Positions 27,727-47,690 of a stretch of DNA of 64,000 nucleotides are shown here, piece by piece. A program made the translations under genes and the position numbers. The DNA comes from Edaphocola flava. GTDB lineage: Bacteria > Bacteroidota > Bacteroidia > Chitinophagales > Chitinophagaceae. The stretch is from contig NZ_SAIQ01000002.1 of assembly GCF_004118155.1 (NCBI RefSeq), positions 372,001-436,000 of the forward strand. The letters run 5' to 3'. The notes beneath the pieces are model-generated. The model was not told the origin of the DNA. It did not search any database and worked only from the letters and a program-made list of their open reading frames with translations. Each line of letters opens with the position of its first letter. Positions within the stretch are counted from its first letter, which is position 1.

Positions 27727-28368
27727 ATGATAAATGTAGCAATTGTAGCTGTCAATGAGGCGAACCGGCTGCTCTTGGAAACCATTGCACAAAGTGACCC
27801 CGAGTTTAGTTATATCGGTTGCTTCAGCAATGAACAAGAGACCATTGAGATGATTGGATTGCAGCAGGTGAACGTTGTGCTTATTGACATTGATGTAATC
27901 GAGTCTGTGGGACTGGAAAGTATTGAGCGGATAAAGGCGGAATCTGAAGAGGTTAAGTTTATGGTGTGCTCCAGGTATAAATCAAATGAAAATTCACTGG
28001 AAGCCATTAAAGCCGGTGCGGATGCCTATTTCGTGCTGGAAAATAGTAAGGCTTATCAGTTTATTGATGCTATTAAGGACCTGCACGCAGGAGAAAGGCC
28101 CATAAGCAGCAGCATCGTTAAAAATATATGGGAATATCTGCATGATCAAACAGCAGATCAAAATGTAAAAGTTGTTGATTTTCAGCTTTCTAAGCGACAG
28201 ATACAAATTATGGAATTGTTGCACGAGGGGCTGAATTATCGCGAGATGTCTAAACTCTTATTTATAAGTGTGTATACCCTCAAGTGGCATGTACATAATA
28301 TATACCAGAAGCTAAATGTTTCCAACAGAACAGAGGCGATCAATGTTTATTTCAAGCGGAATAAGTAA
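27727..28368 (+). CDS. NarL/FixJ-type response regulator with degenerate receiver
   Basis: 213 residues. The receiver keeps Asp54 (VLIDIDV), but the acidic pair that binds magnesium is replaced: residues 8-9 are Ala-Val where the paralogue at 30465 has Glu-Asp. The switch lysine is also gone (AYFVLENS against SYIVKKS). A LuxR-type helix-turn-helix with LSKRQIQIMELLHEGLNYREM and TLKWHVHNIYQKL is intact. Normal phosphorylation is therefore unlikely, and it may act constitutively or as a dimer partner of its paralogue. It lies 146 bases before the histidine kinase. Confidence 0.88.
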   Translation: MINVAIVAVNEANRLLLETIAQSDPEFSYIGCFSNEQETIEMIGLQQVNVVLIDIDVIESVGLESIERIKAESEEVKFMVCSRYKSNENSLEAIKAGADAYFVLENSKAYQFIDAIKDLHAGERPISSSIVKNIWEYLHDQTADQNVKVVDFQLSKRQIQIMELLHEGLNYREMSKLLFISVYTLKWHVHNIYQKLNVSNRTEAINVYFKRNK

Positions 28369-28475
28369 TTCCTGAATAGGCTATCAGTCCGTATTGCGCG
28401 GCAGCTGATGACATACATGGGTGCTTTGGTGCCTGAATGGCTTTGTGGTATGGAGCTTCACTGACTTTTCAGCTG

Positions 28476-28483
28476 TATCTTTG
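28476..28483 (+). promoter_or_regulatory. -7 element before the histidine kinase
   Basis: TATCTTTG matches TAnnTTTG exactly. Transcription from it would begin near 28490, which favours ATG 28515 over ATG 28497 as the start. Confidence 0.55.
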
Positions 28484-28514
28484 TGGTTGACCGATAATGC
28501 TTCAGGGAAAATAT

Positions 28515-30455: not shown

Positions 30456-30464
30456 ACTACACAT

Positions 30465-31100
30465 ATGATAAAAATTCTTATTGTCGAGGATCAGCCAGAA
30501 CATCAGCAGTACTTTAAAAGCATTGTGCTGAGCAATGAAAAATTTAAGTATCTCGGTATTGTACGTAATGGAAAGGAAGCTGTTAAGGTAATCAAAGAGC
30601 AGCAACCTGATGTAGTTATAATGGACCTGGGCCTTCCGGATATTTCCGGTATTGAATGCATCCGGCAGCTGAAGCCTTTGGGGCTGGACACTAAATTTAT
30701 GGTATGCACCATTAATGAAGAAGACGACAGCATATTTGAGGCACTGAAAGCCGGTGCGAATTCCTATATAGTCAAGAAGAGTAAACCTTACCAGATCATT
30801 GATGCCATCATGGAAGTTTTTGATGGAGAAATGCCTATAAGCAGTTGTATTGCTACCAAAATACTGAACTATATGCCTCAGTCCACCGAGGAAGAGGATA
30901 AGCCGGAGGAGGAAGTTTCCTATTCTATTACTTTGAAAGAAGCTGAATTACTGGAACTTCTGGCCAAAGGACATAGTTATAAAGAGATTTCTAATGAAAT
31001 GACGATCAAGATAACGACGATCAAGTGGCATGTGTATAATATATACAAGAAGTTACAGGCCAAGAATCGTACAGAGGCGATTAATAAATACTTTAAATAG
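30465..31100 (+). CDS. NarL/FixJ-family response regulator (canonical)
   Basis: 211 residues. The receiver has a complete active site: Glu8-Asp9, Asp54 in IMDLGLPD and Lys104 in YIVKKS. The LuxR-type DNA-binding domain ends with KWHVYNIYKKLQAKNRTEAI. It is co-transcribed with the kinase just upstream (9-base gap) and followed by a strong terminator. It is clearly paralogous to the degenerate regulator at 27727 and shares the NRTEAIN.YF tail, so the trio arose by local duplication. Confidence 0.92.
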   Translation: MIKILIVEDQPEHQQYFKSIVLSNEKFKYLGIVRNGKEAVKVIKEQQPDVVIMDLGLPDISGIECIRQLKPLGLDTKFMVCTINEEDDSIFEALKAGANSYIVKKSKPYQIIDAIMEVFDGEMPISSCIATKILNYMPQSTEEEDKPEEEVSYSITLKEAELLELLAKGHSYKEISNEMTIKITTIKWHVYNIYKKLQAKNRTEAINKYFK

Positions 31101-33730: not shown

Positions 33731-34432
33731 TTATTTTACAGTAGCCAGCTCATACTCGCTGATCAGGCCCGTGAAGTCAGTAATAGAGTCTATAATATGG
33801 GTATGCGGGTATTGCTCCAGCACCTCTTTATTATTGGCTCCGCTCAATACGCCTACCACCAGAGCACAACCGGCACGGTGACCTTCTTCCAGGTCTACTG
33901 GTGTATCGCCTACCTTAGCTACCTGTTGGGCTTCCTGTATGCCGGTCAGTTCCATAGCTTTCAGGATCATATCCGGGTAGGGGCGACCGTGAGTCACTTC
34001 ATCGCTGGCCACACTTACATCCAGGATACTATCCCATCCCAGTCTGTTGATGATAATATCGGTAATGTCTCTGCTGAAACCCGTATCCAGTCCTACTTTT
34101 ATGCCTTTGGCCTGTAATGTTCTAAAGGTATCTGTAGCACCTTCAATCTCACAGATATCCGGGGCATTGCGGTAAAAGTCTTTCATGATCTGCAGGAAAG
34201 AAGCATGCAGCGTATCAATGGAAATATGGTCCGTGTCGGGATAAAAGCGGTCCAGCAACATTTTGATGGCAACTGGTTTGGCAATGCCCATTACTTCATT
34301 GGCAGCAGACAGCGGAACAATATATTCATGTGTTTCCAGGGCTTTGCATAAGGCTTTGGTTACAAAATCATCATCATAGACAGTAGTGCCGGCCATGTCA
34401 AAAATGGCGAGCTTAATAGATTCGTTGTGCAT
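33731..34432 (-). CDS. Phosphonatase-like HAD hydrolase (TIGR03351 type)
   Basis: 233 residues. The nucleophile motif reads FDMAGTT (Asp12) instead of the usual DxDx(T/V), which is the signature of phosphonoacetaldehyde hydrolase and its close relatives. A cap-domain lysine occurs at Lys52 in MGIAKPVAIK, near but not exactly where PhnX has its Schiff-base lysine. The third-motif basic residue is Arg150 (THGRPYPD), and GDTPVDL carries the acidic metal ligands. The family is expected to cleave the C-P bond of a phosphonoacetaldehyde-like aldehyde. The FAD oxidoreductase family that usually accompanies it (TIGR03364) is encoded at 45.2 kb, which supports a phosphonate role. Confidence 0.85.
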   Translation of the reverse strand: MHNESIKLAIFDMAGTTVYDDDFVTKALCKALETHEYIVPLSAANEVMGIAKPVAIKMLLDRFYPDTDHISIDTLHASFLQIMKDFYRNAPDICEIEGATDTFRTLQAKGIKVGLDTGFSRDITDIIINRLGWDSILDVSVASDEVTHGRPYPDMILKAMELTGIQEAQQVAKVGDTPVDLEEGHRAGCALVVGVLSGANNKEVLEQYPHTHIIDSITDFTGLISEYELATVK

Positions 34433-34459
34433 ATTAAATTTTTAAATTGATATGGTATA

Positions 34460-34504
34460 CAAAGGTAAAACAAATATTTATTTATACTAAACTTTTATTT
34501 AGTA
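34460..34504 (-). promoter_or_regulatory. Promoter and operator of the phosphonatase-like gene
   Basis: On the minus strand TACCTTTG (34460-34467) is a consensus -7 box 28 bases before the ATG. Upstream lies the inverted repeat TACTAAA-N6-TTTAGTA (34485-34504), which overlaps the -33 position and the last codons of the preceding gene. Confidence 0.68.
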
Positions 34505-35786
34505 ATTGTAAACTGTTGGTTTTGCGTTCGGCTCTTGCTTTTCGCAGGAAATACAGTGCAGAAGCGGTTTGGCTGATCAGGAGCAGTACGGCAATGAAAA
34601 TGGTGGTATGGTAGAAAAAATCGACATAGCTCATTTTGCTGTCATAAAAATTCTTGTAAAACAACACGCCTATGCTGCCGCAATAGCCAAAGAAATCGGC
34701 CATTACCCCAATGAAACCTGCATTGCCCGGGTAGCGGAACACCGCCAGCATACGTTCAAAGAATATAGTATTGGCAGGTACATAAGCGATGTATAATCCG
34801 ATACCCGTTGCACAGATCCAAACCTGTGGACTGATCATATGTGCCCCGTAGGCCAGGGTTCCGGCCAGCATAATAATGGCGCCCATAAAACTGATGGCAT
34901 GTATAAACATAAATGCTTTCAGGTTTTCACGAATGCGCTGCATTACAATCATGAGCAGGAGTATGATAATAGATACCGGAATCTCACTGATCGTGAAAAT
35001 AGAAGCATTCCCTTCAAATCCAAGCCCACGCCATATCTCCGGCGCAAAATTGTCCCTGAAGTCGCGGTAGCTGGTCATGAGGATATAGCTTACCATGAAT
35101 ATAGCCAGCCCCATAAAGAAGAAGCGGAAAAAAGCCTGGCGTTCCTTTTTGCTCATCGGCACCCGTTCCGATTTCAAGGCAATATCTTCTGCGGTCTGGC
35201 GGGGCAGCTGCTCTAGCATCCATACTGCCAGTAATAATACCGGCAGGAAGCAGATGCCAACCAGGAAAGGCATCCAGATATCGGCTACACCTAATGTATG
35301 GATGAAATATTGCCCGATACTTTTAATAAAACCAGAGGAGACAATTTGTGTAATGGTCAATCCGACAACCAGGATCTCTGTACTTCTGCGCCCTTCCAGG
35401 TAATTGAAAATTAAACCGAAGATCATACCAATAGGCAGCCCATTCAGGAATAAGGCCAGTATATTATATGGCGCCGGAATGAGGGCAAACAATGCCAGGG
35501 CGAGTACCGAGGTCAAGATGAGCCCTATAATATACCGGGGACGCTGCCTGGGTGTGTTCTCCGCAACGATTTTGATGCCGAAATATTTAGATAAAGTATA
35601 ACCGATAGTCTGTGCACTCACCAGCCATATCTTATAATCAACACCGAGAAAAGCTTGTCCGTCGTAAGTACCGGCTGCAAAAGCCTTGCGTACCGCGTAC
35701 ATAGCGGTATAGGTCAGGAAAGAGGCCAGTGTGGCAAAGCATATAAATAATAGGGAGTTTGCTTCCAGTCTGCGCTTGATATTCAT
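34482..35786 (-). CDS. DUF5690-family MFS-like membrane transporter
   Basis: 434 residues with about 12 membrane helices and the MFS-like cytoplasmic loop between helices 6 and 7 (LPRQTAEDIALKSERVPMSK). It matches the DUF5690 family as I know it, a Bacteroidota major-facilitator-like family often placed beside phosphonate-type genes. The motif NYLEGRRSTE after helix 4 is characteristic. It is the first gene downstream of the XRE regulator, and the phosphonatase-like gene begins 50 bases after it. Uptake of an aminophosphonate is inferred from neighbours, not from the sequence itself. Confidence 0.8.
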   Translation of the reverse strand: MNIKRRLEANSLLFICFATLASFLTYTAMYAVRKAFAAGTYDGQAFLGVDYKIWLVSAQTIGYTLSKYFGIKIVAENTPRQRPRYIIGLILTSVLALALFALIPAPYNILALFLNGLPIGMIFGLIFNYLEGRRSTEILVVGLTITQIVSSGFIKSIGQYFIHTLGVADIWMPFLVGICFLPVLLLAVWMLEQLPRQTAEDIALKSERVPMSKKERQAFFRFFFMGLAIFMVSYILMTSYRDFRDNFAPEIWRGLGFEGNASIFTISEIPVSIIILLLMIVMQRIRENLKAFMFIHAISFMGAIIMLAGTLAYGAHMISPQVWICATGIGLYIAYVPANTIFFERMLAVFRYPGNAGFIGVMADFFGYCGSIGVLFYKNFYDSKMSYVDFFYHTTIFIAVLLLISQTASALYFLRKARAERKTNSLQLLNKSLV

Positions 35787-35896
35787 TAAACTAAAGTTTA
35801 GTATTTGTATCTCGCTGCGAAGGTAAAAACCCTATGTTATCTTAATGCTAAATTTATGTTTAGTATTTGTTTACTTTTGGGTGAAGAAGTAAACAA
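35787..35896 (-). promoter_or_regulatory. Operator cluster in front of the transporter gene
   Basis: Three candidate sites: TAAACTAAAGTTTA (35787-35800, touching the start codon), TGCTAAA-N6-TTTAGTA (35846-35865, overlapping the -33 region), and the pair TTGTTTAC (35867-35874) and GTAAACAA (35889-35896). All share the half-site (G/C)TAAAC. A -7-like TACCTTCG lies on the minus strand near 35817-35824. Confidence 0.65.
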
Positions 35897-36440
35897 TGAG
35901 CATAATACATTTATCAGTACCTGTATTTTTAGGTAAGTGAGGCAGTCGTCCGTCAAAAAATAAGGAGTCTCCTTCTGATAAAGAATACGTTTCACCATTG
36001 ATCATATACTCACATTCGCCCTGTATAATATATTTATATTCGAAGGCATCTGTGGTCACTTCTTCTCTTTTTGCATTTTTACTCAGCTCCAGGATCACAA
36101 AGTCTACCGTAGAAGCAGCAAGGCTTTTGACAAATATGCGTTTATATAAAAATCCCTTGGCATCCTCTTTGGTAAAGGATTCGTAGTCTTTTTTACGTTG
36201 TACGATTACATTAGGCGTCTGCAGGTTTATGCCGCTGAAGAAATGACTTACCGCCATCTCCAGAGATTGTATAATGCTGAACAGTACCGGCAGGGAGGGG
36301 ATGCTTCTTCCGTTCTCAATCTGGGAGATCAGGCCCTTGCTCACACCTGAACGATCGGCCAGCTGCTGTATCGTTAATCGTTTCTCGTATCGGAATTCTT
36401 TAATCCTCCGGCTTACTTCAAGTAGAAATGCTCCTTCCAT
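35871..36440 (-). CDS. XRE-family regulator with C-terminal cupin
   Basis: 189 residues. The N-terminal helix-turn-helix reads TIQQLADRSGVSKGLISQIENGRSIPSL (residues ~23-50). A C-terminal cupin barrel, with EYKYIIQGECEYMING and DSLFFDGRLPH, is the usual ligand-sensing domain of this regulator class. Its own promoter carries a consensus -7 box (36460-36467) with a GTAAACA half-site immediately downstream. Related half-sites surround the divergent receptor operon and the transporter and hydrolase promoters. It is the likely local regulator of the whole phosphonate-type locus, with an aminophosphonate or related small molecule as inferred effector. Confidence 0.88.
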   Translation of the reverse strand: MEGAFLLEVSRRIKEFRYEKRLTIQQLADRSGVSKGLISQIENGRSIPSLPVLFSIIQSLEMAVSHFFSGINLQTPNVIVQRKKDYESFTKEDAKGFLYKRIFVKSLAASTVDFVILELSKNAKREEVTTDAFEYKYIIQGECEYMINGETYSLSEGDSLFFDGRLPHLPKNTGTDKCIMLIVYFFTQK

Positions 36441-36451
36441 GTATAGTATCT

Positions 36452-36467
36452 GTAAACATCAAAGATA
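36452..36467 (-). promoter_or_regulatory. Promoter and operator of the XRE regulator
   Basis: TATCTTTG on the minus strand (36460-36467) is an exact -7 match. The half-site GTAAACA at 36452-36458 falls at the expected transcription start, consistent with autorepression. Confidence 0.62.
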
Positions 36468-36508
36468 TTATGTCTTTTTAACTTGGCATAATACCATTGT
36501 GTAAATAT

Positions 36509-36580
36509 TTGTTTACTTCTTTTATTAACAATTTGGTAAACAAGAGTTAAGCATATGTAAACATGTGTTTATTAATTTTG
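36509..36580 (+). promoter_or_regulatory. Promoter and operators of the receptor operon
   Basis: Half-sites TTGTTTAC (36509-36516) and GTAAACAA (36536-36543), then a palindrome TAAACATGTGTTTA (36558-36571) placed directly before the -7 box TAATTTTG (36573-36580). The first gene starts at 36610. Confidence 0.7.
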
Positions 36581-36609
36581 CGCTATCAAAACAATAATTC
36601 AAACGTGTT

Positions 36610-37047
36610 ATGAAGAAGTTGGTATACCTGCTGGGTTTTACAGTATTAGGTGTTCAGGTGGCTGCTCAGGAAAAGCGGAGTAACCGGGAGCAAATGGCCA
36701 TTGAGGTGCAGGTAGATATGCTGCAACACCGTTTGGGTATTGCCGGTAATCTGTATAAAGTGCAGAAGTATCAATTGCCTGTACAGGTTACAGAAAAGGC
36801 CGAAACAGTATTTGCATCCTGCATGGAAACCTATAAACAATTATATACTTCACTGCCGGAAGCGGAAAGAGCCTCCTTCTTTAAAGAAGACTTTTATATC
36901 AGTGTAATCCCGGTAGTACAGTATTTCAGAACACCGGAATATGCCAGCATGATGATTGCACATAAAAATGCCCTGCATCCCAGACCGGAAGCGCCGGACC
37001 CGAAGCATCATGAAGCAGACGGAGACGGAGACCATACACATAATTAA
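36610..37047 (+). CDS. Small secreted protein with His/Asp-rich tail
   Basis: 145 residues with a clear signal peptide (cut near VAAQE). The mature part is mainly helical, and the last 16 residues form a His/Asp-rich tail (DPKHHEADGDGDHTHN) that looks like a metal-binding peptide. No known domain is seen. It is the first gene of the operon that continues 25 bases later with the TonB-dependent receptor, directly behind the XRE-type operators. A periplasmic metal or ligand accessory for the receptor or for the zinc-type phosphatase is possible but unproven. Confidence 0.75.
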   Translation: MKKLVYLLGFTVLGVQVAAQEKRSNREQMAIEVQVDMLQHRLGIAGNLYKVQKYQLPVQVTEKAETVFASCMETYKQLYTSLPEAERASFFKEDFYISVIPVVQYFRTPEYASMMIAHKNALHPRPEAPDPKHHEADGDGDHTHN

Positions 37048-37072
37048 TACATCAATAATATAATCTGTAATA

Positions 37073-40012
37073 ATGAAAAATATAGCTACATATATTGTTT
37101 GTAGTATTTTACCCGGAGCAGCTATCGCACAGACCGCTACCATTAAGGGTGTGGTGAAAGATAAGCAGGAGACCCTGCCCGGTATTATTATATCACTGGC
37201 CGGTAAGCAATACCATACGGTTACAGAACTGGATGGCTCCTTCGCACTGGTAGGTGTACCCCTGGGACAGTATACACTAAAGGTATCATCCATGGGATAT
37301 AATGAATATTCGAAAGACATTGTACTGACTGCAGATACAGACCTGGGCAGCATTGAACTGAGTGAAAAAGAGCTGAATGAAGTTACGGTTGTTGCAGACA
37401 TGAAAGGCACCGAAACCAAGGCTTTGAATATGATGAAGTCTTCAATGGTATTTTCCAATATCGTATCGGCAGAGGGTGTGGCAAAACTGCCGGATCGTAA
37501 TGTGGCTGAGGCGGTACAACGCCTGCCCGGTGTGGTTATGGAATCAGATCAGGGAGAGGGGCGTTTTATCTCTTTCCGTGGTACACCTTCTGACTGGAGT
37601 GCAGCACTGGTCAATGGTGATCGTATGCCGGTGGCAGATGAGGAGTCTAAAACCCGTGCGATGAACTTCGATATTTTTCCTTCCAGCCTGGTTGATTATA
37701 TTGTAGTGTCCAAAACCCTGTCTCCCGATATGGAAGCGGATGCAATCGGTGGTAGTGCCAACTTTATTACTAAAAATGCACCGGCTAAAAAAGCGGTACA
37801 AGCTTCTATAGGCGCCGGTTTTAATGCACAGGCACAGAAGCCAGTATATAATGCAGCACTGTCTTTTGGGAACCGGAGTAAGAATGGAAAATTCGGGTAC
37901 TTCGCCGGAGGTTCATTATACAGCCGTAACTGGGCTACAGATAATTACCAGGTGTTTTATGGCTCCAATATAGACCAGTCTTTATCGCGCCTGGAGCTGA
38001 GAGATTATGAAGGACAGCGAAATACACTGGGTGCTAATGCTGCACTGGAGTATAAATTTAATGATCGTGCCAGGATATATGCCAAAGGGGTGTATGGTCA
38101 TATGAAAGATGAGGAATACAACCGCAAGACCATGTATAACTGGAGCACCGGCTGGGGACAGTCGATCAAGCTGCAGAATATTCACAATATCATGCTTACC
38201 GATTTCTGGGGAGCAGAGCTGGGCGGGGAGCTGAAGCCCTCTGCAAAGCTATCGGCCAACTGGCGCATCGCCAGCTACAGTAACCATTTCCAGTACGGAC
38301 CGGTGCCTTTTGAAAAAGGAGATCCCCGTAACGGTTATCATGTAGTGGAGTTTGAAAAGTCTGTCAATTTTAAAGATTTTATCTACCTCGATGAGAACGG
38401 AAAAGTAACGGATGAGCGCAATGCCTATGACCGCTTGAAACTCCTGGATATTGATAGTCCTGAGCCGGGTTATGGAGATCATTACCGCAACATACAACCG
38501 GTTTATGAAAATGTGCCCCTGGTCAATCCTTCGGACACCTCTTTTGCCTTTACCCGCGCCTACTCAGAAACCAATAATACCTGGGAGAAAGATCCTATTA
38601 CCGCACAGATCGATCTGCAATACGCTGCAAAGAATAACCTGAAAATAAAATTCGGCGGAAAAATGCGTATGAAAGAAGGTCGCCGTAATGTAGGCCTGGA
38701 GCTGTGGGAGCGCAATAAAGATCTGAGTTCGTCTATTCTCTACAATACATTTAAACCGGCACAATTCAACGAGCGTGGTGGTTTCCTTGCAGAGCTGGGT
38801 AGCCCGTATACCGGTAAGCTGTTGCCTTTCCTGAGCGGAGACCAGATCGATAATTTCGTGTCCGGCCTGGGCGATACCTTGCGCCATATTCCTTTCGGTA
38901 CACAAACGCCTTACTTCCAGCAGATGGTAGGATCGAGCTATAGATACAAAGAGACCGTGTATGCAGGCTATGCTATGGCAGAATGGAGTCCTGTGGCGAA
39001 GCTGACACTGGTGCCTGGTGTAAGGGTAGAGTATACCAGTCCTACTGTTGAGGCAGATAGCATTATTACCATAGATCCGGCACTGGGTAGGGTTGCGTTG
39101 ACACCGGTTCGTTCCGGCAAAAGCTACTGGTCTGTATTACCTATGCTGAATGCAAAATATACTCTTAGTAATAAGCAGAACCTGCGACTGGCGGTAACCC
39201 GCACATTCCGGAGACCTAACTTTAACGAGATCAAACCTGGTGCTGCTGCCATTAATTACTCCAATAATGACCTGGTATATGGCAACCCCAATCTGAAACC
39301 GACTTATTCATGGAACTATGACCTCGCCTATGAACGTTACCTGAGCGCCACCAGTATGCTGAGTGTTTCAGGTTTCTATAAACAGGTTAAAGACCACATC
39401 TACACTGCATTTGAAAGCAGTAGTGCGGACAATAACGGTGTATCGAATGAATTCCAGATTCCGGGTGGGGTAATCGCCAAGAAGTTTCAGAATGCACCGC
39501 AGGCCTTTGCAACAGGTATAGAAGCATCGCTGATGAGTAAGCTGCGTTTCCTGCCCGGCATATGGAAGAACCTGGGGGTGAATATCAACTACTCATATAC
39601 CTATTCTCAGATGCGCATTGAAGCCAGAGACAAGCCACAGGCTTTGCCACGACAATCTCCTAATGTGTTGAATGTAGCCCTGTACTTCGAGAACCAGCAC
39701 ATCACTACCCGTATAGGGCTTAACTACCGCGATCCTTATCTGTATGAGCTGAATCTGTATGCTGTAAAAGATCCTGCTTCTGAAAAGATGCTGATCCTGC
39801 ACCAGAACAATGACTATGATGTATATGTAGGTCGCAGCCTTACGCTGGATTACTCCTTCGCGTACAGTTTTAAAGATCATTTTTCCGTATTCGCAGAGAT
39901 CAATAACCTGACCAATACACCATACACCATGTATCGCGGGCAAAAGGAGCGTCCCTTAAAAACAGAGTACTATTCTGTGAGAGGATTGGTAGGGCTGCGA
40001 TATAGTTTCTAA
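37073..40012 (+). CDS. TonB-dependent receptor
   Basis: 979 residues. A short signal peptide precedes a carboxypeptidase-regulatory-like domain (TATIKGVVKDKQETLPGIII, residues ~22-100), then the plug (RLPGVVMESDQGEGRFISFRG region) and a 22-strand barrel ending in the aromatic-terminal ...GLRYSF. Motifs such as GTPSDWSAALVNGDRMP and SPDMEADAIGGSANF match the TonB-Xanth-Caul branch rather than SusC. No SusD partner follows, so the ligand is probably not a glycan handled by a SusCD pair. Its position between a regulator and a phosphatase-superfamily enzyme suggests import of a phosphonate-containing molecule. Confidence 0.9.
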   Translation: MKNIATYIVCSILPGAAIAQTATIKGVVKDKQETLPGIIISLAGKQYHTVTELDGSFALVGVPLGQYTLKVSSMGYNEYSKDIVLTADTDLGSIELSEKELNEVTVVADMKGTETKALNMMKSSMVFSNIVSAEGVAKLPDRNVAEAVQRLPGVVMESDQGEGRFISFRGTPSDWSAALVNGDRMPVADEESKTRAMNFDIFPSSLVDYIVVSKTLSPDMEADAIGGSANFITKNAPAKKAVQASIGAGFNAQAQKPVYNAALSFGNRSKNGKFGYFAGGSLYSRNWATDNYQVFYGSNIDQSLSRLELRDYEGQRNTLGANAALEYKFNDRARIYAKGVYGHMKDEEYNRKTMYNWSTGWGQSIKLQNIHNIMLTDFWGAELGGELKPSAKLSANWRIASYSNHFQYGPVPFEKGDPRNGYHVVEFEKSVNFKDFIYLDENGKVTDERNAYDRLKLLDIDSPEPGYGDHYRNIQPVYENVPLVNPSDTSFAFTRAYSETNNTWEKDPITAQIDLQYAAKNNLKIKFGGKMRMKEGRRNVGLELWERNKDLSSSILYNTFKPAQFNERGGFLAELGSPYTGKLLPFLSGDQIDNFVSGLGDTLRHIPFGTQTPYFQQMVGSSYRYKETVYAGYAMAEWSPVAKLTLVPGVRVEYTSPTVEADSIITIDPALGRVALTPVRSGKSYWSVLPMLNAKYTLSNKQNLRLAVTRTFRRPNFNEIKPGAAAINYSNNDLVYGNPNLKPTYSWNYDLAYERYLSATSMLSVSGFYKQVKDHIYTAFESSSADNNGVSNEFQIPGGVIAKKFQNAPQAFATGIEASLMSKLRFLPGIWKNLGVNINYSYTYSQMRIEARDKPQALPRQSPNVLNVALYFENQHITTRIGLNYRDPYLYELNLYAVKDPASEKMLILHQNNDYDVYVGRSLTLDYSFAYSFKDHFSVFAEINNLTNTPYTMYRGQKERPLKTEYYSVRGLVGLRYSF

Positions 40013-40075
40013 ATCAATCTTTATTCATTAATCCATTCAATATAAAATAGTAACAACTTATACAATCAAACAGAA

Positions 40076-41377
40076 ATGAAAATGATTAAAAAATTACTAA
40101 CCGGCGCTTTACTGATCGGTTCCACAGTAACCGTATCGGCACAAACAGGCACGCCTAAAAAGCCTAAAGTATTATTTATCGGTATCGACGGTGTACGCGC
40201 AGATGCTTTACTGCAGGCCAATACACCAAATATTGATACCCTGATGGCACATGGTTTGTATACCTTCGACTCCTGGCATTGTGGTGCGACCTCCAGCGGT
40301 GCATCATGGTCTACGATGATGACCGGTGTGTGGGAAGCCAAACACCAGGTGACCAACAATAGTTATACCAATCCTAACTATGCCAACTATCCGTATTTTC
40401 CTAAGAGAGCCAAGGAATGTCTGCCGAACCTGAAAGCAGTACAGATCATTACCTGGGACCCGATGAATGATCCGACCAATAGTAATAACAGCGCAGGATT
40501 CGTATTCAACAGCGGTTTCAACCAATCTATCGATGCCGGTACACACGGGCAGGGTGCGGTAACTGCAGCGGCAAAGATTCAGCTGAACGATCCTAACCTG
40601 GACATCCTGTTCATTCACTATGATGAATGTGACGCAGCGGGCCACTCTTCAGGCTTCAACCCTGCCAATCCGCAGTATATGAATGCTATCCAGACCGTAG
40701 ATGCTGAGATTGGTGAAGTGATCGCGAAATTATACCAGCGTCCTACCTACAACCAGGAAGACTGGCTCATCCTGCTGACTACAGATCATGGTGGTATCGG
40801 TACTACACATGGCGGACAATCCAACACAGAGCGTCATATCTGGTGGGTAGCTTCCGGACCAAGTGTACCGCACCTGCAGATCACCGGACCAGATCCGGGC
40901 AGCTATTACATGCCGACCAATCCTGTAGATACAACTTTACTGAACAATACTCCCGTACTGACCGACATCGCAGTTACCGCACTGGCACACATCATGAAAG
41001 GATCTGCCTGCGAGAGCCCGGAAACCAATCCTGCATGGAATCTTGACGGTAAGTCATGGTTACTGCCGGTAACCGATACTACAGATACCACCGGTAATCC
41101 TACTTATGTAGAAGATGTACGCAATGCGGCTATTGAATTCGGTATTTTCCCTAACCCGAACAATGGTGTATTCAAAGTAGCCTTTAAAGATGTTGCCGGT
41201 AAGATCGACATCCGCATCCAGAATATGAATGGTGTAGCGGTGCAGAGCAAAACCACACAAGGTACTGCAGGCTTAACGGTTGTACCGTTCGATCTTACTG
41301 CTCTGCCAAGAGGTATTTACTTCATGCACGTAATGAATAATGGTAAACAGACCGTAAGAAAAATCGTATTGCAATAA
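40076..41377 (+). CDS. Alkaline-phosphatase-superfamily hydrolase with T9SS sorting domain
   Basis: 433 residues. A signal peptide (cut near VSAQ) is followed by a phosphodiesterase/phosphonohydrolase-type fold: metal ligands around Asp38 (IGIDGVRAD), nucleophile region SSGASWST with Ser74 at the nucleophile position, Asp186/His190 (DAAGH), Asp237/His238 (TTDHGG) and His245. The last ~80 residues are a T9SS domain (IFPNPNNGVFKVAF ... LPRGIYFMHV). The enzyme should act outside the cell or on the surface. Candidate substrates are phosphonate esters or phospho(no)diesters, whose product the receptor would import. The exact substrate is not deducible. Confidence 0.84.
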   Translation: MKMIKKLLTGALLIGSTVTVSAQTGTPKKPKVLFIGIDGVRADALLQANTPNIDTLMAHGLYTFDSWHCGATSSGASWSTMMTGVWEAKHQVTNNSYTNPNYANYPYFPKRAKECLPNLKAVQIITWDPMNDPTNSNNSAGFVFNSGFNQSIDAGTHGQGAVTAAAKIQLNDPNLDILFIHYDECDAAGHSSGFNPANPQYMNAIQTVDAEIGEVIAKLYQRPTYNQEDWLILLTTDHGGIGTTHGGQSNTERHIWWVASGPSVPHLQITGPDPGSYYMPTNPVDTTLLNNTPVLTDIAVTALAHIMKGSACESPETNPAWNLDGKSWLLPVTDTTDTTGNPTYVEDVRNAAIEFGIFPNPNNGVFKVAFKDVAGKIDIRIQNMNGVAVQSKTTQGTAGLTVVPFDLTALPRGIYFMHVMNNGKQTVRKIVLQ

Positions 41378-41385
41378 CATTTTAT

Positions 41386-41409
41386 AGCGGATGTCGCAGG
41401 GCATCCGCT
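41386..41409 (+). terminator. Terminator after the phosphatase gene
   Basis: AGCGGATG and CATCCGCT form a stem, followed by TTTTCTTT. It may be partly read through into the LamG gene 53 bases on. Confidence 0.7.
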
Positions 41410-41439
41410 TTTCTTTAAGCTCATTTCAAATAAATCATA

Positions 41440-44400
41440 ATGAACACAAAATTACTGGTACGCGTACTGGCCTTGCTGTTTATGAGCATAGGTCTGGGGC
41501 AAAGCTTGTCTTCGTACGGGCAGGGTGCTGCAAAGGCCCTGAGTTTTAATGGCAGCAGCCATGTGAATATGGGCGACTCCTTATCCCGCTCCCTGTCACA
41601 ATCTGACTTTACCATAGAGATGTGGGTAAAAGTCAGAAGCAATAGTTCTGACCCGGTATTCCTGGGCAATAAAAACTGGGCCAGTGGGGCCAATACTGGT
41701 ATCGTCTGGTGTCGTTATGCCACGAACACCCTTCGCTTTAACTTCCGCGCTGCGGGTCGTACCCGTAAGGATATGAATATGACCCTGGATTATGGTAAAT
41801 GGAATCATATTGCCGTTACCGTAAAACGTAATGGAAACATCACGGGTTATGTAAATGGTGTACAGAACGGTACAGCCGTAAGCATTGCCGCAGATTCCGG
41901 TTTCGCTATTGATGCAGGTTTGCCTTTACGCCTGGGTGCAGATGGTAATGCTGCTTTCGGTATCGATGGGGATATGGATGAGGTACGCATCTGGAATACT
42001 GTACGCACCGTGGCCGATATCCGCAATGATATGTGTCATAAACTGACCGGAGCAGAAACCGGGCTGATGGCTTACTACCGTATGGATGAGACTACCGGCA
42101 CCACGGTAACAAACTCCGCGGCAACAAGCACCGGATTTTTCAACGGTACCTTTGTTAATACACCGGCAAGAATAGCCAGCGGTGCATCTGTCGGAGATGA
42201 ATCGGTACAACTGTATGCTGCAACGTACACCGGACAGACATTAAGCCTGACCTCTCCTGCGAACGGAACCGTACAGCTGGATAATATCAGCAATAATACT
42301 AGCGGTATACACCTGTTCAAAGTGAATGCCGTACCGAATACGACTTCCGGTATTGCCAATCCGGGTACAAATAATGTGTACTACGGTGTATTCCCGGTAT
42401 CAGATACCAGCAGTTATAACCTGGTGTATAATTATACCAACTATCCGGCAGCCAATACATTTGAAGGTGGTATAGACCTGTTTAAGCGCTACAGCATGGA
42501 TTCTGTATGGAGCTTATGGGCAGCGACTAAAAATATAACCAATAATACCCTGAGCAAAACGGGTGTTTCGGGCAGACAGGAATTAATCATCGGTAGCTTC
42601 GTTACCTCTGTGACCTGTAATACACCTACTGCATTAAATGCACAGAATATCACCACCAGTGCGGCACAGCTGAGCTGGATCACTGGCGGTTCTAATGCCT
42701 GGAACCTGGCATACGGTCAAGGAACCTTTACTCCGGGTAATGGCGGTACTGTAGTGAACAATCTTTCTGCTGCAAACTATACCGTAAATAACCTGCAAAG
42801 CAATACTACTTACCGATTCTATGTACGTGATACCTGTGCCACTATTAATAGTGCCAGTGCATGGGCCGGACCGTATACGTTTACGACGGCTATGGACTAC
42901 AGCACTTATGGCAGTGGTTATGCAATGAACTTTCAGGGTACGGGCGCTAATGAGCATGTAAACCTGGGTGATTCTTTATCCGGTGCTATGGCAAAAGGCA
43001 GCTATACTTTAGAGACATGGGTTAAGTTCAATAACCCTTCCAGCGATCCTTCCTTTATTGGTAACAAAGACTGGAACAGTGGTGCCAATACCGGTATTCT
43101 CTGGTGCTGGAACGGTGGCGGTAACCTGCGTTTCAATTTCAAGCCTGCTGGCGGTACCCGAAAAGATTATGACATCAATTTACCGGACCCGGCAGAGTGG
43201 AATCATATTGCTATGGTGGTAGACCGTAAAGGAAGCCTAACTGCATACCTGAATGGGGTACAGGCTGGCAGCCCGATCAATATCGCTGCAGATTCTTTAC
43301 TAAGCCTTGATGGTGCATTACCGATGCGTATCGGTCAGGATGGTACCGGTGTGTACGGTCCTAAATTTAAAGGAGCAATGGATGAACTGCGCGTCTGGAA
43401 GAAAGCAATGACGGTTGAAGAAATCAGGGCAAATATGTGTCATAAGATCAATACTACTGATACCAATTTACTGGCCTATTATCGTATGGATGAAGCCAGT
43501 GGTACGGTACTGACCAACCTTGCGGCAACCGGTACGGTGTTTAACGGTACGCTGCTGAACAATCCGCAACGCGTGATCAGTGGTGCTGCTATCGGAGATA
43601 CCAGTATACAAGTGTATCCTAACGGATGGAACGGGGTAAGCCTTTCATTAGGCAGTAATGCTATGGGACAGATCACGATCGATTCTGTAGAAGCCAATAC
43701 TAAAGGGCTACAGTTATACCGCATCAATACTGTGCCGAATATGGTGAATGGTATTGTGCAATTAGGTACAACCAATCAATACTTCGGTGTGTATACCCCG
43801 GGCAATAAAACAGCTCAGTATAAAACAGTGTATAATTACAGCAGTTATCCTAATGCCGTAAGCAATAATGCAAACCTGCACCTGTATAACCGTAAAGCGA
43901 ATGATGATACTTTGTGGACACAGAGTGTAGCGGCCAACAATACAACTGCACAGCAACTGAGCTTAATGCAGGCTTCGGGTGTGAAGCAATTTGTCCTGGC
44001 AGACTTCTCTGCTCCGGCCTGCGCTACACCGCAGAACATTACGATTACTAATATCGACACCGGCAATGCTACTATCAGCTGGACTTCCGCTGCGGGCAAA
44101 CACCTGATAGAATACGGTAATACCGCTTTCTCGCCAGGCACCGGTACTGCCGTAACGAGCACAACTGCTTCGCTGACCTTAACGAACCTGAATGCTTCGC
44201 AGACATATAAGTTTTATATGAAAGACTCCTGTAGCGCAACAAGCGCAAGTACTTGGGTTGGACCATTCTACTTCACTACGCTGAACCCTTGTCCGCAACC
44301 GTTCAATGTACATGCAGATAGTATTACAGCTGCTGCTATGGTCCTGAAGTGGGAAGATAACGGTATCGTTACCCAGGATTATATCGTAAGCTGGGGCACA

Positions 44401-45099
44401 CAAGGATTTGGTAATCCGGCATTTGGTATCCAAACCAATGTTGTGGACAAACGTTTTGAGCTGACTGCGGCAACACCGAATACTACTTATGATTTTTATG
44501 TAAGAGCTAACTGTAATTCCAGTGTGACGAACAGCGGATGGGTTGGGCCATTCTCCTACACCACGCTGCCATGTGAGCCGGCACATAATGTTGTAGTGAG
44601 CAACATTAATGCAAGCGGTGCAAAAGCTACCTGGACCAGCACTGCGGGTTTATGGAACCTGAGCTATGGTACGACTGGTTTCGTTCCGGCTAATGGTACC
44701 ATCGTTGCGAACCTGAGTGCTGCACAGTATACTTTCTCCGGACTGACCAACAATACGGATTATGAGTTCTACATACAGGATAGCTGTACATTAGGACTGA
44801 ATCCATGGCAGGGACCATTTACCTTCTCTACAGCAGATCCAAACAGCATTAAGGAATTGGGTGCAGATGATTTCAGACTGTATCCTAACCCGGCTGCGGA
44901 TCAGCTGCAGGTAGTCCTGAATGGTACTGCACAGGCCAAACTGGTGATGCATAACCAGATCGGTACAGTAGTACTGCAACAGGTAATCAACAACAGATTG
45001 ACAAGTCTGGATGTACAGACCTTACCGGCAGGCGTATATTTCATTACCGTAAATAATGGTAAAGCATCAGGAACACAGAAAGTAGTGATCCAACATTAA
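41440..45099 (+). CDS. Large secreted LamG/fibronectin type III protein with T9SS sorting domain
   Basis: 1219 residues. A signal peptide is followed by a LamG-like jelly roll (~45-225; FTIEMWVKVRSN, MDEVRIWNTVRT), an intervening beta-rich stretch, and an FN3 module (~395-485). A second LamG (~505-680; YTLETWVKFNNP, MDELRVWKKAMT) repeats the first closely. Three more FN3 modules follow (~855-1130), and the protein ends in a T9SS domain (LYPNPAADQLQVVL ... LPAGVYFITV). The two LamG-spacer-FN3 halves form an internal duplication. This is a binding or scaffold protein on the cell surface, and its position suggests that it captures the substrate of the neighbouring enzyme or receptor. Confidence 0.85.
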   Translation: MNTKLLVRVLALLFMSIGLGQSLSSYGQGAAKALSFNGSSHVNMGDSLSRSLSQSDFTIEMWVKVRSNSSDPVFLGNKNWASGANTGIVWCRYATNTLRFNFRAAGRTRKDMNMTLDYGKWNHIAVTVKRNGNITGYVNGVQNGTAVSIAADSGFAIDAGLPLRLGADGNAAFGIDGDMDEVRIWNTVRTVADIRNDMCHKLTGAETGLMAYYRMDETTGTTVTNSAATSTGFFNGTFVNTPARIASGASVGDESVQLYAATYTGQTLSLTSPANGTVQLDNISNNTSGIHLFKVNAVPNTTSGIANPGTNNVYYGVFPVSDTSSYNLVYNYTNYPAANTFEGGIDLFKRYSMDSVWSLWAATKNITNNTLSKTGVSGRQELIIGSFVTSVTCNTPTALNAQNITTSAAQLSWITGGSNAWNLAYGQGTFTPGNGGTVVNNLSAANYTVNNLQSNTTYRFYVRDTCATINSASAWAGPYTFTTAMDYSTYGSGYAMNFQGTGANEHVNLGDSLSGAMAKGSYTLETWVKFNNPSSDPSFIGNKDWNSGANTGILWCWNGGGNLRFNFKPAGGTRKDYDINLPDPAEWNHIAMVVDRKGSLTAYLNGVQAGSPINIAADSLLSLDGALPMRIGQDGTGVYGPKFKGAMDELRVWKKAMTVEEIRANMCHKINTTDTNLLAYYRMDEASGTVLTNLAATGTVFNGTLLNNPQRVISGAAIGDTSIQVYPNGWNGVSLSLGSNAMGQITIDSVEANTKGLQLYRINTVPNMVNGIVQLGTTNQYFGVYTPGNKTAQYKTVYNYSSYPNAVSNNANLHLYNRKANDDTLWTQSVAANNTTAQQLSLMQASGVKQFVLADFSAPACATPQNITITNIDTGNATISWTSAAGKHLIEYGNTAFSPGTGTAVTSTTASLTLTNLNASQTYKFYMKDSCSATSASTWVGPFYFTTLNPCPQPFNVHADSITAAAMVLKWEDNGIVTQDYIVSWGTQGFGNPAFGIQTNVVDKRFELTAATPNTTYDFYVRANCNSSVTNSGWVGPFSYTTLPCEPAHNVVVSNINASGAKATWTSTAGLWNLSYGTTGFVPANGTIVANLSAAQYTFSGLTNNTDYEFYIQDSCTLGLNPWQGPFTFSTADPNSIKELGADDFRLYPNPAADQLQVVLNGTAQAKLVMHNQIGTVVLQQVINNRLTSLDVQTLPAGVYFITVNNGKASGTQKVVIQH

Positions 45100-45115
45100 T
45101 TTAAATATAATACCC

Positions 45116-45145
45116 ATATTGTCTCCGGCTAGCCGGAGACAATAT
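45116..45145. terminator. 30-base perfect palindrome, likely terminator
   Basis: Two 15-base arms meet with no spacer (centre GCTAGC). It lies 16 bases after the LamG gene stop. The start of the next gene is placed after it, at 45176. Confidence 0.75.
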
Positions 45146-45175
45146 ATTTTGCACTTAGAGACACAAAATAGACAC

Positions 45176-46342
45176 ATGACAAAACAGTTTGACGTAATCA
45201 TTATCGGAGCCGGAGCCCTCGGCGTATTTCATGCTTATCATGCCCTGAAGGCAGGCAAGACGGTAATGTTACTGGAGAAGGATAAGCGTGCCCAGGAAGC
45301 CACTGTACGCAATTTCGGACAGGTCGTGCCTTCTGGTCTGATACCAGGCAGTGAATGGCATGAATACGGTCGCATCGCTACAGAATTATACAAAGAAATA
45401 CAAAGTGAATTCCATATTGGTATCCGCAACAATGGTTCCTGTTATATAGCCAATACCGCGTCTGAAATGGCCGTACTGGAAGAGTTGCAGGCAAAGTTCC
45501 ATGCAGTAGATTACACAGCTGAATTATGGACCGCTGCACAGTTGCTGGAGCGCTACCCGATGGTGCAGACCGGTTATGCTAAGGGGGCACTATTCTTTCC
45601 GCAGGAAGTATCTGCCGAGCCGGAGATCCTGGTGCATCGTGTACTGGAATACCTGTCTGTTAAATTTCCGCAGCGGTTCCGCCACCGGAATAATTGCCCT
45701 GTAGTGGGTACAGAAACTGCCGGAGATACCGTAAGGGTAAGCACTGCTGACAAGCAGGAGTATGCGGCAGCTCATTGTTTTATCTGCTCTGGCAGAGAGT
45801 TTAAACTACTATTCCCGGAAGTGTTTGCCACAAGCGGGCTCATCGTATCTAAACTAAATATGATGGCGACTTACCCGCAACAGCATACGGTGTTGCCAGG
45901 CAATATCCTTACCGGGCTTACCATAAGACGCTATGAGAGCTTCACGGCCTGTGACAGTTACCAGCAGCTGGATGCAGCAGATGTACCACAGGATTGTGTG
46001 GATTACGGCATTCATATCCTGTTTAAACAAAGGGTAGACGGTAGTGTGATCATCGGAGATTCTCATCTCTATGCACCCATAGAGGATCAGGATGACCTGA
46101 GCATATTCTATAATGATATGCACATTAATGAGATCATGCTGAGGGAAGCAAAGAAGATCATGCAACTGGACAACTGGAATATAGCCCAGAACTGGACCGG
46201 TTTTTATGCCCAGCATGAAGATGAGATCTTCTGTCATACCATAGACAAGCGCATTCATATTGTTACGGGTATCGGCGGCAAGGGCATGACCACCTCTGCC
46301 GGTTTTGCACAACACAATATCAGCAAAGTATTGAACAGTTAG
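45176..46342 (+). CDS. FAD-dependent amine oxidoreductase, TIGR03364-like
   Basis: 388 residues from ATG 45176; an earlier in-frame start at 45119 would include the palindromic terminator and is rejected. The N-terminal FAD motif reads VIIIGAGALGVFHAYHAL. The rest is a DAO-fold oxidoreductase of the glycine/sarcosine oxidase type, with ATVRNFGQVVPSGLIPG near residue 40 and a closing TGIGGKGMTTSAGFA. This pattern fits the TIGR03364 family, which is known to co-occur with phosphonatase-like enzymes and is proposed to deaminate an aminophosphonate to an aldehyde. The phosphonatase-like partner is encoded at 33.7 kb. Confidence 0.85.
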   Translation: MTKQFDVIIIGAGALGVFHAYHALKAGKTVMLLEKDKRAQEATVRNFGQVVPSGLIPGSEWHEYGRIATELYKEIQSEFHIGIRNNGSCYIANTASEMAVLEELQAKFHAVDYTAELWTAAQLLERYPMVQTGYAKGALFFPQEVSAEPEILVHRVLEYLSVKFPQRFRHRNNCPVVGTETAGDTVRVSTADKQEYAAAHCFICSGREFKLLFPEVFATSGLIVSKLNMMATYPQQHTVLPGNILTGLTIRRYESFTACDSYQQLDAADVPQDCVDYGIHILFKQRVDGSVIIGDSHLYAPIEDQDDLSIFYNDMHINEIMLREAKKIMQLDNWNIAQNWTGFYAQHEDEIFCHTIDKRIHIVTGIGGKGMTTSAGFAQHNISKVLNS

Positions 46343-46409: not shown

Positions 46410-47690
46410 TTAATGACCCTTCAGGAATTGCTGTAACAGGTCTGCAAAGCGATATACATCTTCAAAGCTGTTGTACATGGGCACCGGTGCGATGCGGATT
46501 ACATTTGGCTCGCGCCAGTCTGCAACTACACCATGAGCAGTCAGGTGATCAAATGCAGCTCTGCCTTTGTCTTTGAATAACAGGGACAGCTGCGCTCCAC
46601 GGCGATGCGGTTCTTTTGGTGTAATAATTTCAAAAATACCGGCTGCTTCCAATGGTTGCAACAGGAATTCTGCATAAGCAGTCAGCTTCAGACTCTTTTC
46701 TCTGAGTTGTGCTACAGATGTTTTGTCAAAAATATCCAGGGAAGATTTGTGCGCGATCATATTGAAGACCGGCGCATTACTCATCTGCCAGCTGGCAGCA
46801 CCCTTAGCAGGGATAAAGCCTTTCTTCATTTTGAAACGGGTAGACTCATCATTGCCCCACCAACCGGCAAGACGCAGGGTATCCGGGTTATTGCCATGTT
46901 TTTCATGAACAAAAATACCCGCTACACCACCAGGGCCAGAGTTTAAGTATTTGTAAGAACACCAGCAGGCGAAGTCTACATCCCAGTCATGCAATTGCAT
47001 CGGCACATTACCCATAGCATGTGCGAGGTCAAAACCGCACAGAGCGCCAACTTCATGCGCTGCTTTAGTAATTGCCGGCATGTCAAATAACTGACCGGTA
47101 TAATAGTTTACACCACCCATCATCACACAAGCCAGCTGATCGCCGGTGTCTTTGATGGCCTGTAAAATATCTTCATCTCTCAGGCAATACTCCCCATCTC
47201 TCGGAGTCAGTTCTATAATGGCTTCATTAGGATCAAATCCGTGCATTTTTACCTGCGTTTCCATTGCATACTGATCAGAAGGGAATGCACCTGCCTCCAT
47301 AATGATTTTATAGCGCTGCTGGGTAGGACGGTAAAACGAGATCATCAGTAAATGCAGGTTCACCGTCAGCGTATTCATGGCCACAACTTCTGAAGTATCG
47401 GCTCCTACGATTCTGGCCAGGGAGGTGCTGAACTGATGGTGGTAATGCATCCATGGGTTCTCTGCCTGGAAGTGACCTTCTACACCATACTTAGCCCAGT
47501 CAGCCAGCTCTTTCTGAAACAGCCAGGAAGCACTTCTTGGCTGTAAACCCAATGAGTTGCCGCAGAAATAAAGCACATCATTTCCATCATGCTGAGGGAA
47601 ATGGAAGCGCTCACGGAAAGAATGTAATATATCTACATCATCTAGTGATAATGCATATTCAAGATTGTTTTCGAACGTGTACGTAGTCAT
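46410..47690 (-). CDS. kynU: Kynureninase
   Basis: 426 residues, the usual size for this PLP enzyme, which splits kynurenine to anthranilate and alanine (and 3-hydroxykynurenine similarly) in tryptophan breakdown. Family hallmarks: FCGNSLGLQP near the N-terminus, DFACWCSYKYLNSGPGG with the PLP lysine near 247, and the C-terminal RIAPVPMYNSFEDVYRF. No other kynurenine-pathway gene is adjacent. lspA follows 43 bases upstream on the same strand, so shared transcription with lspA is possible. Convergent to the phosphonate-type locus and probably unrelated to it. Confidence 0.93.
   Translation of the reverse strand: MTTYTFENNLEYALSLDDVDILHSFRERFHFPQHDGNDVLYFCGNSLGLQPRSASWLFQKELADWAKYGVEGHFQAENPWMHYHHQFSTSLARIVGADTSEVVAMNTLTVNLHLLMISFYRPTQQRYKIIMEAGAFPSDQYAMETQVKMHGFDPNEAIIELTPRDGEYCLRDEDILQAIKDTGDQLACVMMGGVNYYTGQLFDMPAITKAAHEVGALCGFDLAHAMGNVPMQLHDWDVDFACWCSYKYLNSGPGGVAGIFVHEKHGNNPDTLRLAGWWGNDESTRFKMKKGFIPAKGAASWQMSNAPVFNMIAHKSSLDIFDKTSVAQLREKSLKLTAYAEFLLQPLEAAGIFEIITPKEPHRRGAQLSLLFKDKGRAAFDHLTAHGVVADWREPNVIRIAPVPMYNSFEDVYRFADLLQQFLKGH

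Follow-up and report, generated by a model that had tools for sequence, protein, structure and literature searches.

In this study, we examined a 64,000-nucleotide stretch of the Edaphocola flava genome (contig NZ_SAIQ01000002.1; the window, to whose positions all coordinates refer) and propose that eight of its genes, at 33731-46342, probably form an aminophosphonate utilisation system that begins outside the outer membrane and ends in the cytosol. The best evidence for its import step is comparative: a membrane carrier of the DUF5690 family keeps its place in related genomes while the cytosolic enzymes beside it are exchanged. A sequence-only reading had listed the same eight genes as a locus for aminophosphonate acquisition and carbon-phosphorus (C-P) cleavage. 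All eight open reading frames (ORFs) were confirmed, each at its place; the HAD and FAD proteins gave their best scores with TIGR03351 and TIGR03364 and not with unrelated HAD or oxidase families, the carrier matched PF18943 at 482 bits, and the FAD, HAD and DUF5690 genes co-occur and cluster in relatives.

In the mechanism that we propose, an enzyme sorted by the type IX secretion system (T9SS), perhaps held near its target by a LamG protein, would act on a larger ester, for instance a glycan or lipid carrying 2-aminoethylphosphonate (AEP), and release AEP or N-methyl-AEP. Synteny suggests that a TonB-dependent receptor would move the compound across the outer membrane, and comparison between genomes supports DUF5690, a one-component carrier and possibly an organophosphate antiporter by type, as the protein that takes it across the inner membrane. 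A FAD oxidase, of a family whose activity has been shown elsewhere, would then deaminate the compound to phosphonoacetaldehyde, and a HAD hydrolase, judged by its active-site residues and by the pairing of its relatives with PhnW, would form a lysine Schiff base and so cleave the C-P bond, yielding acetaldehyde and phosphate. An XRE-cupin regulator, probably sensing the substrate, may control both divergent units through GTAAACA-type operators.

A constant carrier and exchangeable cytosolic routes

Proteins of the window were assigned by profile searches, with scores set against the cut-offs of the NCBIfam or Pfam models, and relatives were surveyed in 195 genomes of the Chitinophagaceae (hereafter the family) and, for the phylum, in 395 Bacteroidota genomes; G-numbers denote searched genomes and L-numbers loci fetched from relatives. 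The DUF5690 gene (34482..35786, minus strand) has homologues (E 1e-20) in 90 of the 195 family genomes. TIGR03364, the family of the FAD oxidase, scored over its cut-off in 66, TIGR03351, that of the HAD enzyme, was found in 67 (E 1e-30; 12 over cut-off), the oxygenase Phn-HD (TIGR03276, E 1e-30) in 52 (11 over cut-off), PhnW in 11, all over cut-off, and the C-P lyase component PhnJ in two. DUF5690 was present in every genome with TIGR03364 (66/66), Phn-HD (52/52) or PhnW (11/11) and in 66 of the 67 with TIGR03351; the FAD and HAD families coincided in 63 of 66, and all three occurred together in 63 genomes. Fisher p values for the co-occurrence of FAD, HAD and DUF5690 across the 195 genomes range from 1e-30 to 1e-42 and ignore the shared ancestry of the genomes. 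At the level of the phylum, DUF5690 was detected in 42/395 genomes and TIGR03364 (E 1e-60) in 33/395, with an overlap of 30/33, or 23/26 outside the family. Among 34 scored non-family DUF5690 loci (a 35th, L165, was dropped as its DUF5690 gene was not recovered by the ORF caller), the FAD gene lies nearby in 18, PhnW in four more, and a homologue of the FAD enzyme of L103 and a HAD gene in one each.

Loci L103 and L119 are without the TIGR03364 family: SusD, a secreted phosphatase, an HD gene and DUF5690 are kept there beside PhnW, PhnA (TIGR02335) and a PhnY-type gene, the last identified with TIGR03250 in L103 and by clustering in L119, and both loci also carry a different FAD enzyme. Outside the family, L175 and L182 have the order DUF5690-PhnX-PhnW, with canonical PhnX at 350 and 328 bits (cut-off 220). 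PhnW and DUF5690 are at most 250 bp apart in six of the 11 PhnW-bearing family genomes (G008, G028, G059, G064, G123, G162), one gene separates them in G070, and G019, G076, G152 and G194 have them at a greater distance or on other contigs; at locus L117, DUF5690 adjoins PhnW. The carrier therefore stays constant while the cytosolic route changes, and we regard this comparison across genomes as the best evidence pointing to import of an aminophosphonate by DUF5690.

The FAD oxidase and the HAD enzyme

The FAD oxidase (45176..46342, plus strand; an alternative TTG start is possible at 45119) passes the TIGR03364 cut-off with 351.3 bits against 285.1 and is 97% identical to its counterpart in Edaphocola aurantiacus H2. 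Published work is cited here by PMC number. Enzymes of this family, named PbfD, oxidise N-methyl-AEP (M1AEP) and AEP to phosphonoacetaldehyde, as published in 2023, and the same paper had already pointed out that AEP clusters of FCB-group bacteria contain PbfD homologues (PMC10590968). Because this activity was shown in 2023, the cytosolic chemistry proposed here is a known route. By analogy with the family, the FAD enzyme of the window would convert an aminophosphonate to phosphonoacetaldehyde.

For the HAD enzyme (33731..34432, minus strand), the best NCBIfam model is TIGR03351 at 215.0 bits, followed by TIGR01422 (PhnX) at 107.5. It has the motifs FDMAGTT, Lys52 and THGRPYPD; in an alignment of 39 sequences D12, G15, T16 and K52 are invariant and A14 is kept in at least 90%, and phmmer aligns its segment MGIAK on MGLLK of the PhnX structure 2iof. 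We take D12, A14 and K52 to correspond to the catalytic residues of PhnX, namely the Asp nucleophile, the Ala two residues on and the cap-domain Lys. These residues suggest a phosphonoacetaldehyde hydrolase that cleaves the C-P bond. TIGR03351 enzymes over the cut-off adjoin PhnW in G194 (locus L124, 241 bits) and G019 (245 bits). PhnW yields phosphonoacetaldehyde. TIGR03351 enzymes can therefore follow a step that makes this compound.

We also considered an inactive phosphonatase of the PcrP/PA2803 type and rejected it: that group is without the catalytic residues, among which the Asp and cap Lys are named for phosphonatase (PMC12632274), and the HAD enzyme of the window has them. Among the fetched loci, two TIGR03351-type HAD genes lie within one phosphonate operon (L050:11437-13925).

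The DUF5690 carrier compared with known transporters

Aligned with hhalign, the DUF5690 profile reaches GlpT/UhpT/UhpC at E 5.3e-4 over 288 columns, but with a probability of only 30.6, while the two controls, three sugar porters and three drug exporters, gave E 0.13 and 0.15. Single-sequence alignments, too weak to be used alone, gave 0.041 for GlpT, 0.0034 for UhpT, 0.14 for EmrD and 0.34 for LacY. The general major facilitator superfamily (MFS) model MFS_1 was reached by 12 of 50 DUF5690 members at E <1 (best 6e-7), and a hidden Markov model (HMM) built from 50 DUF5690 sequences matched no PDB chain at E 10. In the same weak alignment, the invariant R33 of DUF5690 falls on GlpT R45 and the invariant R241 one column off GlpT R269, which are presumably the two phosphate-binding arginines of GlpT. 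The likeness to GlpT/UhpT is weak and suggestive only. In a tree of 107 rows, built by a quick method and with the window sequence entered twice, 23 changes are needed to explain the labels for linkage to phosphonate genes, where shuffled labels need 36.1 on average.

A predicted structure from a six-sequence alignment was set aside as too poor to use (mean pLDDT 40.6). A DUF5690 match above the cut-off in Caulobacter vibrioides shows that the family extends beyond Bacteroidota.

Gene neighbourhoods in relatives

FAD loci were fetched from 60 of the 65 other TIGR03364-bearing family genomes (G043, G095, G128, G137 and G142 were left out) and scored within 9 kb of the FAD gene with a simple ORF caller and BLAST clusters; several loci end at contig ends, so that the counts are lower bounds. 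DUF5690 is found in 52 loci; 49 have an outer-membrane uptake gene, 48 one of the phosphatase type and 43 both. The HAD gene is present in 40, the HD gene in 36, SusD homologues in 41, a PhoB-like gene in 20, and PhoB-like with PhoR-like genes in 14. DUF5690, HAD and FAD stand together in 38 loci, and 33 have an uptake gene and a phosphatase-type gene in addition. SusC or SusD, a secreted phosphatase, HD, HAD, DUF5690 and FAD are combined in 20 loci, 17 loci having exactly the order SusD-phosphatase-HD-HAD-DUF5690-FAD. The HD protein of L075, a relative of TmpB and PhnZ, scores 215.4 bits with the Phn-HD model (cut-off 214.6). Many relatives, then, use SusC/SusD and add a Phn-HD oxygenase, and the combination of TonB receptor, T9SS enzyme and LamG protein seen in the window is rarer.

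In the close relatives L001, L002, L003 and L006, the order is identical to that of the window, with DUF5690 and the XRE gene on the minus strand and the His-tailed, TonB, phosphatase-superfamily, LamG and FAD genes on the plus strand. L004 (Taibaiella koreensis) keeps it, with no His-tailed gene detected, and since its receptor, phosphatase and LamG proteins are only 37-42% identical, the gene order is held by more than recent descent; a sixth relative, L005, has FAD and DUF5690 in a different layout. The HAD gene lies outside the extent of these fetched loci and adjoins DUF5690 in G031, G125 and G192 of the same genus and in G101 of the family. Farther away, L085 has a receptor and T9SS phosphatase of the window's type directly before HAD-DUF5690-FAD, and L162, from another family, is a second case of the window's version, with the order XRE-TonB-DUF5690-FAD-HAD-phosphatase and a phosphatase 43% identical to a window-type one.

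Outer-membrane and secreted proteins

The TonB-dependent receptor (37073..40012, plus strand) is of the TIGR01782 type (425 bits, cut-off 310), and no SusD-family match was found among the scanned window genes, so that the window has a TonB receptor without SusD. A receptor is in the same position in L001-L004, L006 and L085, and relatives with 34-35% identity lie beside DUF5690-FAD-HAD outside the family, in L153, L154, L162 and L179.

The next gene (40076..41377, plus strand) encodes the T9SS-sorted enzyme of the alkaline-phosphatase superfamily, which is phosphodiesterase-like, with a PF01663 domain at 75.2 bits (cut-off 23) and a TIGR04183 tail at 44 bits. The solved chains nearest to it are bacterial and animal NPP phosphodiesterases. 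D38, D186, H190, D237, H238 and H245 are invariant in six orthologues, and we assume that the metal ligands lie among them. The enzyme shares homology with the phosphatase that is secreted in the SusCD version (hhalign probability 97.4, E 1.3e-11), and an HMM of that phosphatase found no PDB chain at E 0.01. On these features it is a putative phosphonate-ester hydrolase. Its predicted structure, again from a six-sequence alignment, was discarded as too poor (mean pLDDT 53.8). A separate observation concerns a beta-propeller protein with a phosphoesterase (PF04185, scanned in L091), which lies in or near the phosphonate operon in L091, L059, L067, L074 and L177, some of which showed no secreted phosphatase of the usual kind.

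The LamG/fn3 protein (41440..45099, plus strand) is secreted and has two stretches of Laminin_G_3, four of fn3 and a T9SS tail (Por_Secre_tail); it is in the same position in L001-L004 and L006, and its domains suggest a role in ligand capture. Edaphocola aurantiacus has an extra LamG gene (about 855 aa; L001:14856-15470), which the window is without, between a TPR gene and a gene that we name, presumptively, DUF3810-like. The small secreted protein with a His-rich tail (36610..37047, plus strand) matches no Pfam family at E 0.01, and its single NCBIfam match, at E 0.008, is not meaningful. It occurs in three of the 60 family loci, is 97% identical in L001 and 41-57% identical in L002, L003 and L006, and was not detected in L004; metal delivery would be a guess at its role.

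Regulator and operator-like sites

Relatives of the XRE-cupin regulator (35871..36440, minus strand; HTH_3 and Cupin_2) occur in 14 of the 60 family loci at no more than 9 kb from the FAD gene. The divergent promoter beside it (36441..36609) contains four GTAAACA sites in 169 bp, against a maximum of two in 300 first-order Markov simulations of the window, and two operator-like 24-nt repeats (36500-36523 and 36556-36579) that are 79% alike. Two more sites of this type, read as GTTTAC/GTAAAC, lie at the end of the XRE gene in the region upstream of the DUF5690-HAD unit (35787..35895), and the two regions together hold 6 of the 16 GTAAACA sites in the 64-kb window. Both contain sequence blocks conserved in five related loci (six aligned loci for the divergent promoter). 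In each of the five orthologous loci inspected, the GTTTAGTATTTGTTTACTT block retains its GTTTAC site, a conservation that coding constraint may partly explain because the site overlaps the end of the XRE gene.

Across the window, GTAAACA is not rare (16 against 9.6 expected, a number reached by 8 of 100 shuffles), and a 16-nt pattern, TGTAAACATGTGTTTA, allowed three mismatches, gave two matches against 1.1 expected; only the clustering of GTAAACA sites is unusual. Upstream of the XRE gene, GTAAAC or GTTTAC is found in every one of the three loci of the window's type and in 3 of the 13 remaining loci (two of these incomplete), and for that reason we claim the operator motif for the near relatives of the window only.

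Other features of the window and its genome

In line with the sequence-only reading, which saw neither C-P lyase nor ABC importer, single marker families detected no PhnJ (PF06007), no PhnD-type binding protein (PF12974) and no AepX/AepS-type binding protein (PF13343) anywhere in the genome; PhnW (TIGR02326, E 1e-60) and Phn-HD (TIGR03276, E 1e-30) gave no match there either. The kynureninase gene that follows the FAD gene (46410-47690) was rejected as a member of the locus, as it adjoins the FAD gene in only one (L001) of six related loci. Upstream of the locus, at 27727-31100, inspection of the sequence in place of a profile search shows an apparent sensor histidine kinase between two response regulators of the NarL/LuxR type.

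Alternative explanations

A number of observations weigh against our reading, and we take them together with the explanations that they would favour. The HAD enzyme falls 4 bits below the TIGR03351 cut-off (215.0 vs 218.9); in the same genus, that of G125 is also below it (213.8), and those of G031 (231.1) and G192 (219.9) pass; it is also far below the PhnX cut-off (107.5 vs 220) and is not filed as PhnX proper. The FAD enzyme represents a divergent branch, with 27-32% identity to most family relatives and 41-61% to a few. The substrate of such a pair might be neither AEP nor N-methyl-AEP but another phosphonate, perhaps an aminophosphonate that is hydroxylated or substituted, with the HAD enzyme cutting a different phosphono-aldehyde. 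The separateness of the TIGR03351 and PhnX families would fit this, as would the Phn-HD oxygenase added in 36 of the 60 family loci (none is found in the genome of the window); it is related to TmpB and PhnZ, which take their names from hydroxylated phosphonates. We nevertheless consider a different substrate rather unlikely, since TIGR03351 enzymes adjoin PhnW in G194 and G019 and the L103/L119 module is joined to PhnW-PhnY-PhnA, both of which run via phosphonoacetaldehyde.

A second set of observations concerns the carrier. Sixteen of the 90 DUF5690-bearing family genomes gave no FAD, HAD or PhnW match in these searches, and among the 15 of these fetched (loci were fetched from 20 of the 24 family genomes with DUF5690 and without TIGR03364) a PhoBR-like pair stands beside DUF5690 in seven. 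Ten of the 34 non-family DUF5690 loci are without a nearby phosphonate gene, two of these genomes (G374, G433) having TIGR03364 elsewhere, and in the tree 13 rows form a branch in which no phosphonate gene is linked (SH-aLRT 89). The GlpT-family model TIGR00881 misses the DUF5690 protein of the window at E 0.001 and has matches at ten other genomic places, all below its cut-off, so that other MFS carriers could be the importers. DUF5690 might then be a general organophosphate carrier of the phosphate regulon, as its resemblance to GlpT/UhpT would also allow, with the phosphonate entering another way. Against this stand its company with three separate aminophosphonate routes, its presence in every PhnW- or TIGR03364-bearing family genome, and the precedent of AepP, a GlpT relative that is a proven AEP permease (PMC8316502), and we regard it as unlikely. 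Because several of the genomes without FAD, HAD and PhnW pair DUF5690 with PhoBR-like genes, the family may carry other phosphorus compounds as well; these genomes and the unlinked tree branch lead us to see DUF5690 as likely a family of phosphonate and organophosphate carriers with phosphonate-linked branches. The seven loci in which it stands beside a PhoBR-like pair are L101, L104, L108, L109, L110, L114 and L118, where it may carry other organophosphates; one such pair was scanned and scores below the PhoB and PhoR cut-offs.

The surface proteins, finally, are not constant companions of the cytosolic genes: 12 of the 60 family loci are without a phosphatase-type neighbour and 11 without an outer-membrane uptake gene, some of them limited by contig ends, and LamG, found in four of the 60, was seen only in the window and its near relatives. 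NPP-like enzymes, to which the T9SS enzyme is akin, act on many phosphodiesters. LamG and fn3 domains hint at glycan binding, and the receptor, T9SS enzyme and LamG protein might be a set for glycans or phosphodiesters that has nothing to do with the locus and lies between DUF5690-HAD and FAD by chance. This is unlikely, given that the receptor-phosphatase pair recurs beside HAD-DUF5690-FAD in L085 and in L162 of another family, that SusC/SusD with a homologous phosphatase often takes the same place (43 of 60 loci have uptake and phosphatase-type genes), and that similar GTAAACA sites occur in both upstream regions.

Relation to known systems

The PbfD-PhnX pathway resembles the locus of the window in joining a TIGR03364 FAD oxidase to a phosphonatase-type HAD, with PhnW absent in some organisms; it differs in that the HAD of the window is TIGR03351-like and not PhnX proper, and the available text mentions neither outer-membrane uptake genes nor DUF5690 (PMC10590968). 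Achromobacter HpnW-PhnHD-PhnX operons bring together TIGR03364, Phn-HD and PhnX, like the Phn-HD-bearing version of the Chitinophagaceae, but belong to a glyphosate-degrading host, and the part of that text available mentions no SusCD or DUF5690 (PMC11203657). On the uptake side, known AEP importers are ABC systems or AepP. The latter, an AEP permease of Pseudomonas putida that is 28% identical to GlpT and reported also in Kriegella aquimaris of the Bacteroidetes, is a single-component MFS carrier like DUF5690 and is co-localised with PhnWAY or PhnWX (PMC8316502). DUF5690 is, by contrast, a separate Pfam family, barely detectable as GlpT-like and missed by TIGR00881.

For outer-membrane uptake, one close precedent stood among the matches listed in a search for phosphonate with SusC/SusD, TonB or Bacteroidota: a 2020 paper on Flavobacterium PusCD has one sentence on SusCD clusters with 'phosphonate-degrading enzymes' and, in its available part, names no TIGR03364, TIGR03351, DUF5690 or T9SS/TonB version (PMC8115612). 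Loci of the PusCD type, and polysaccharide utilisation loci, have SusC with SusD, in contrast to the window with its TonB receptor and no SusD. The available texts of PMC10590968, PMC11203657 and PMC12366243 do not describe an uptake architecture of the window's type, and no mention of DUF5690 by name was found in the open-access main texts searched.

The sequence-only reading had called the assembly little described. This holds for the uptake side, which has the SusCD precedent of 2020 (PMC8115612); the chemistry is less novel than supposed, given the PbfD activity published in 2023 (PMC10590968). Its interpretation of the genes fared likewise in part: the import role of DUF5690 is strengthened by the swapping of routes, and the HAD and FAD families held, while the release or capture of a phosphonate-bearing molecule at the surface by the T9SS enzyme and the LamG protein is something that we infer.

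Conclusion

In conclusion, the chemistry of this locus is known, its uptake side is little described and modular, and DUF5690 gains a strong candidate function. As a wider proposal, to which we give a little less than an even chance, Bacteroidota may share a modular phosphonate utilisation locus in which the DUF5690 importer family is combined with at least three interchangeable cytosolic routes, and in which a secreted enzyme of the phosphatase superfamily and SusCD or TonB uptake harvest glycan- or lipid-bound phosphonate; the window would be the T9SS surface version, in which a LamG adhesin keeps the enzyme close to what it acts on. Should DUF5690 prove to import phosphonate, a domain of unknown function that 42 of the 395 sampled phylum genomes contain would acquire a role open to testing, and bacteria of this kind would be missed by surveys based on counts of phnD, aepX or C-P lyase. 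If the proposal is true, the pairing of a phosphatase at the surface with uptake by SusCD or TonB would point to bound phosphonate, and not only to the free form, as a nutrient.

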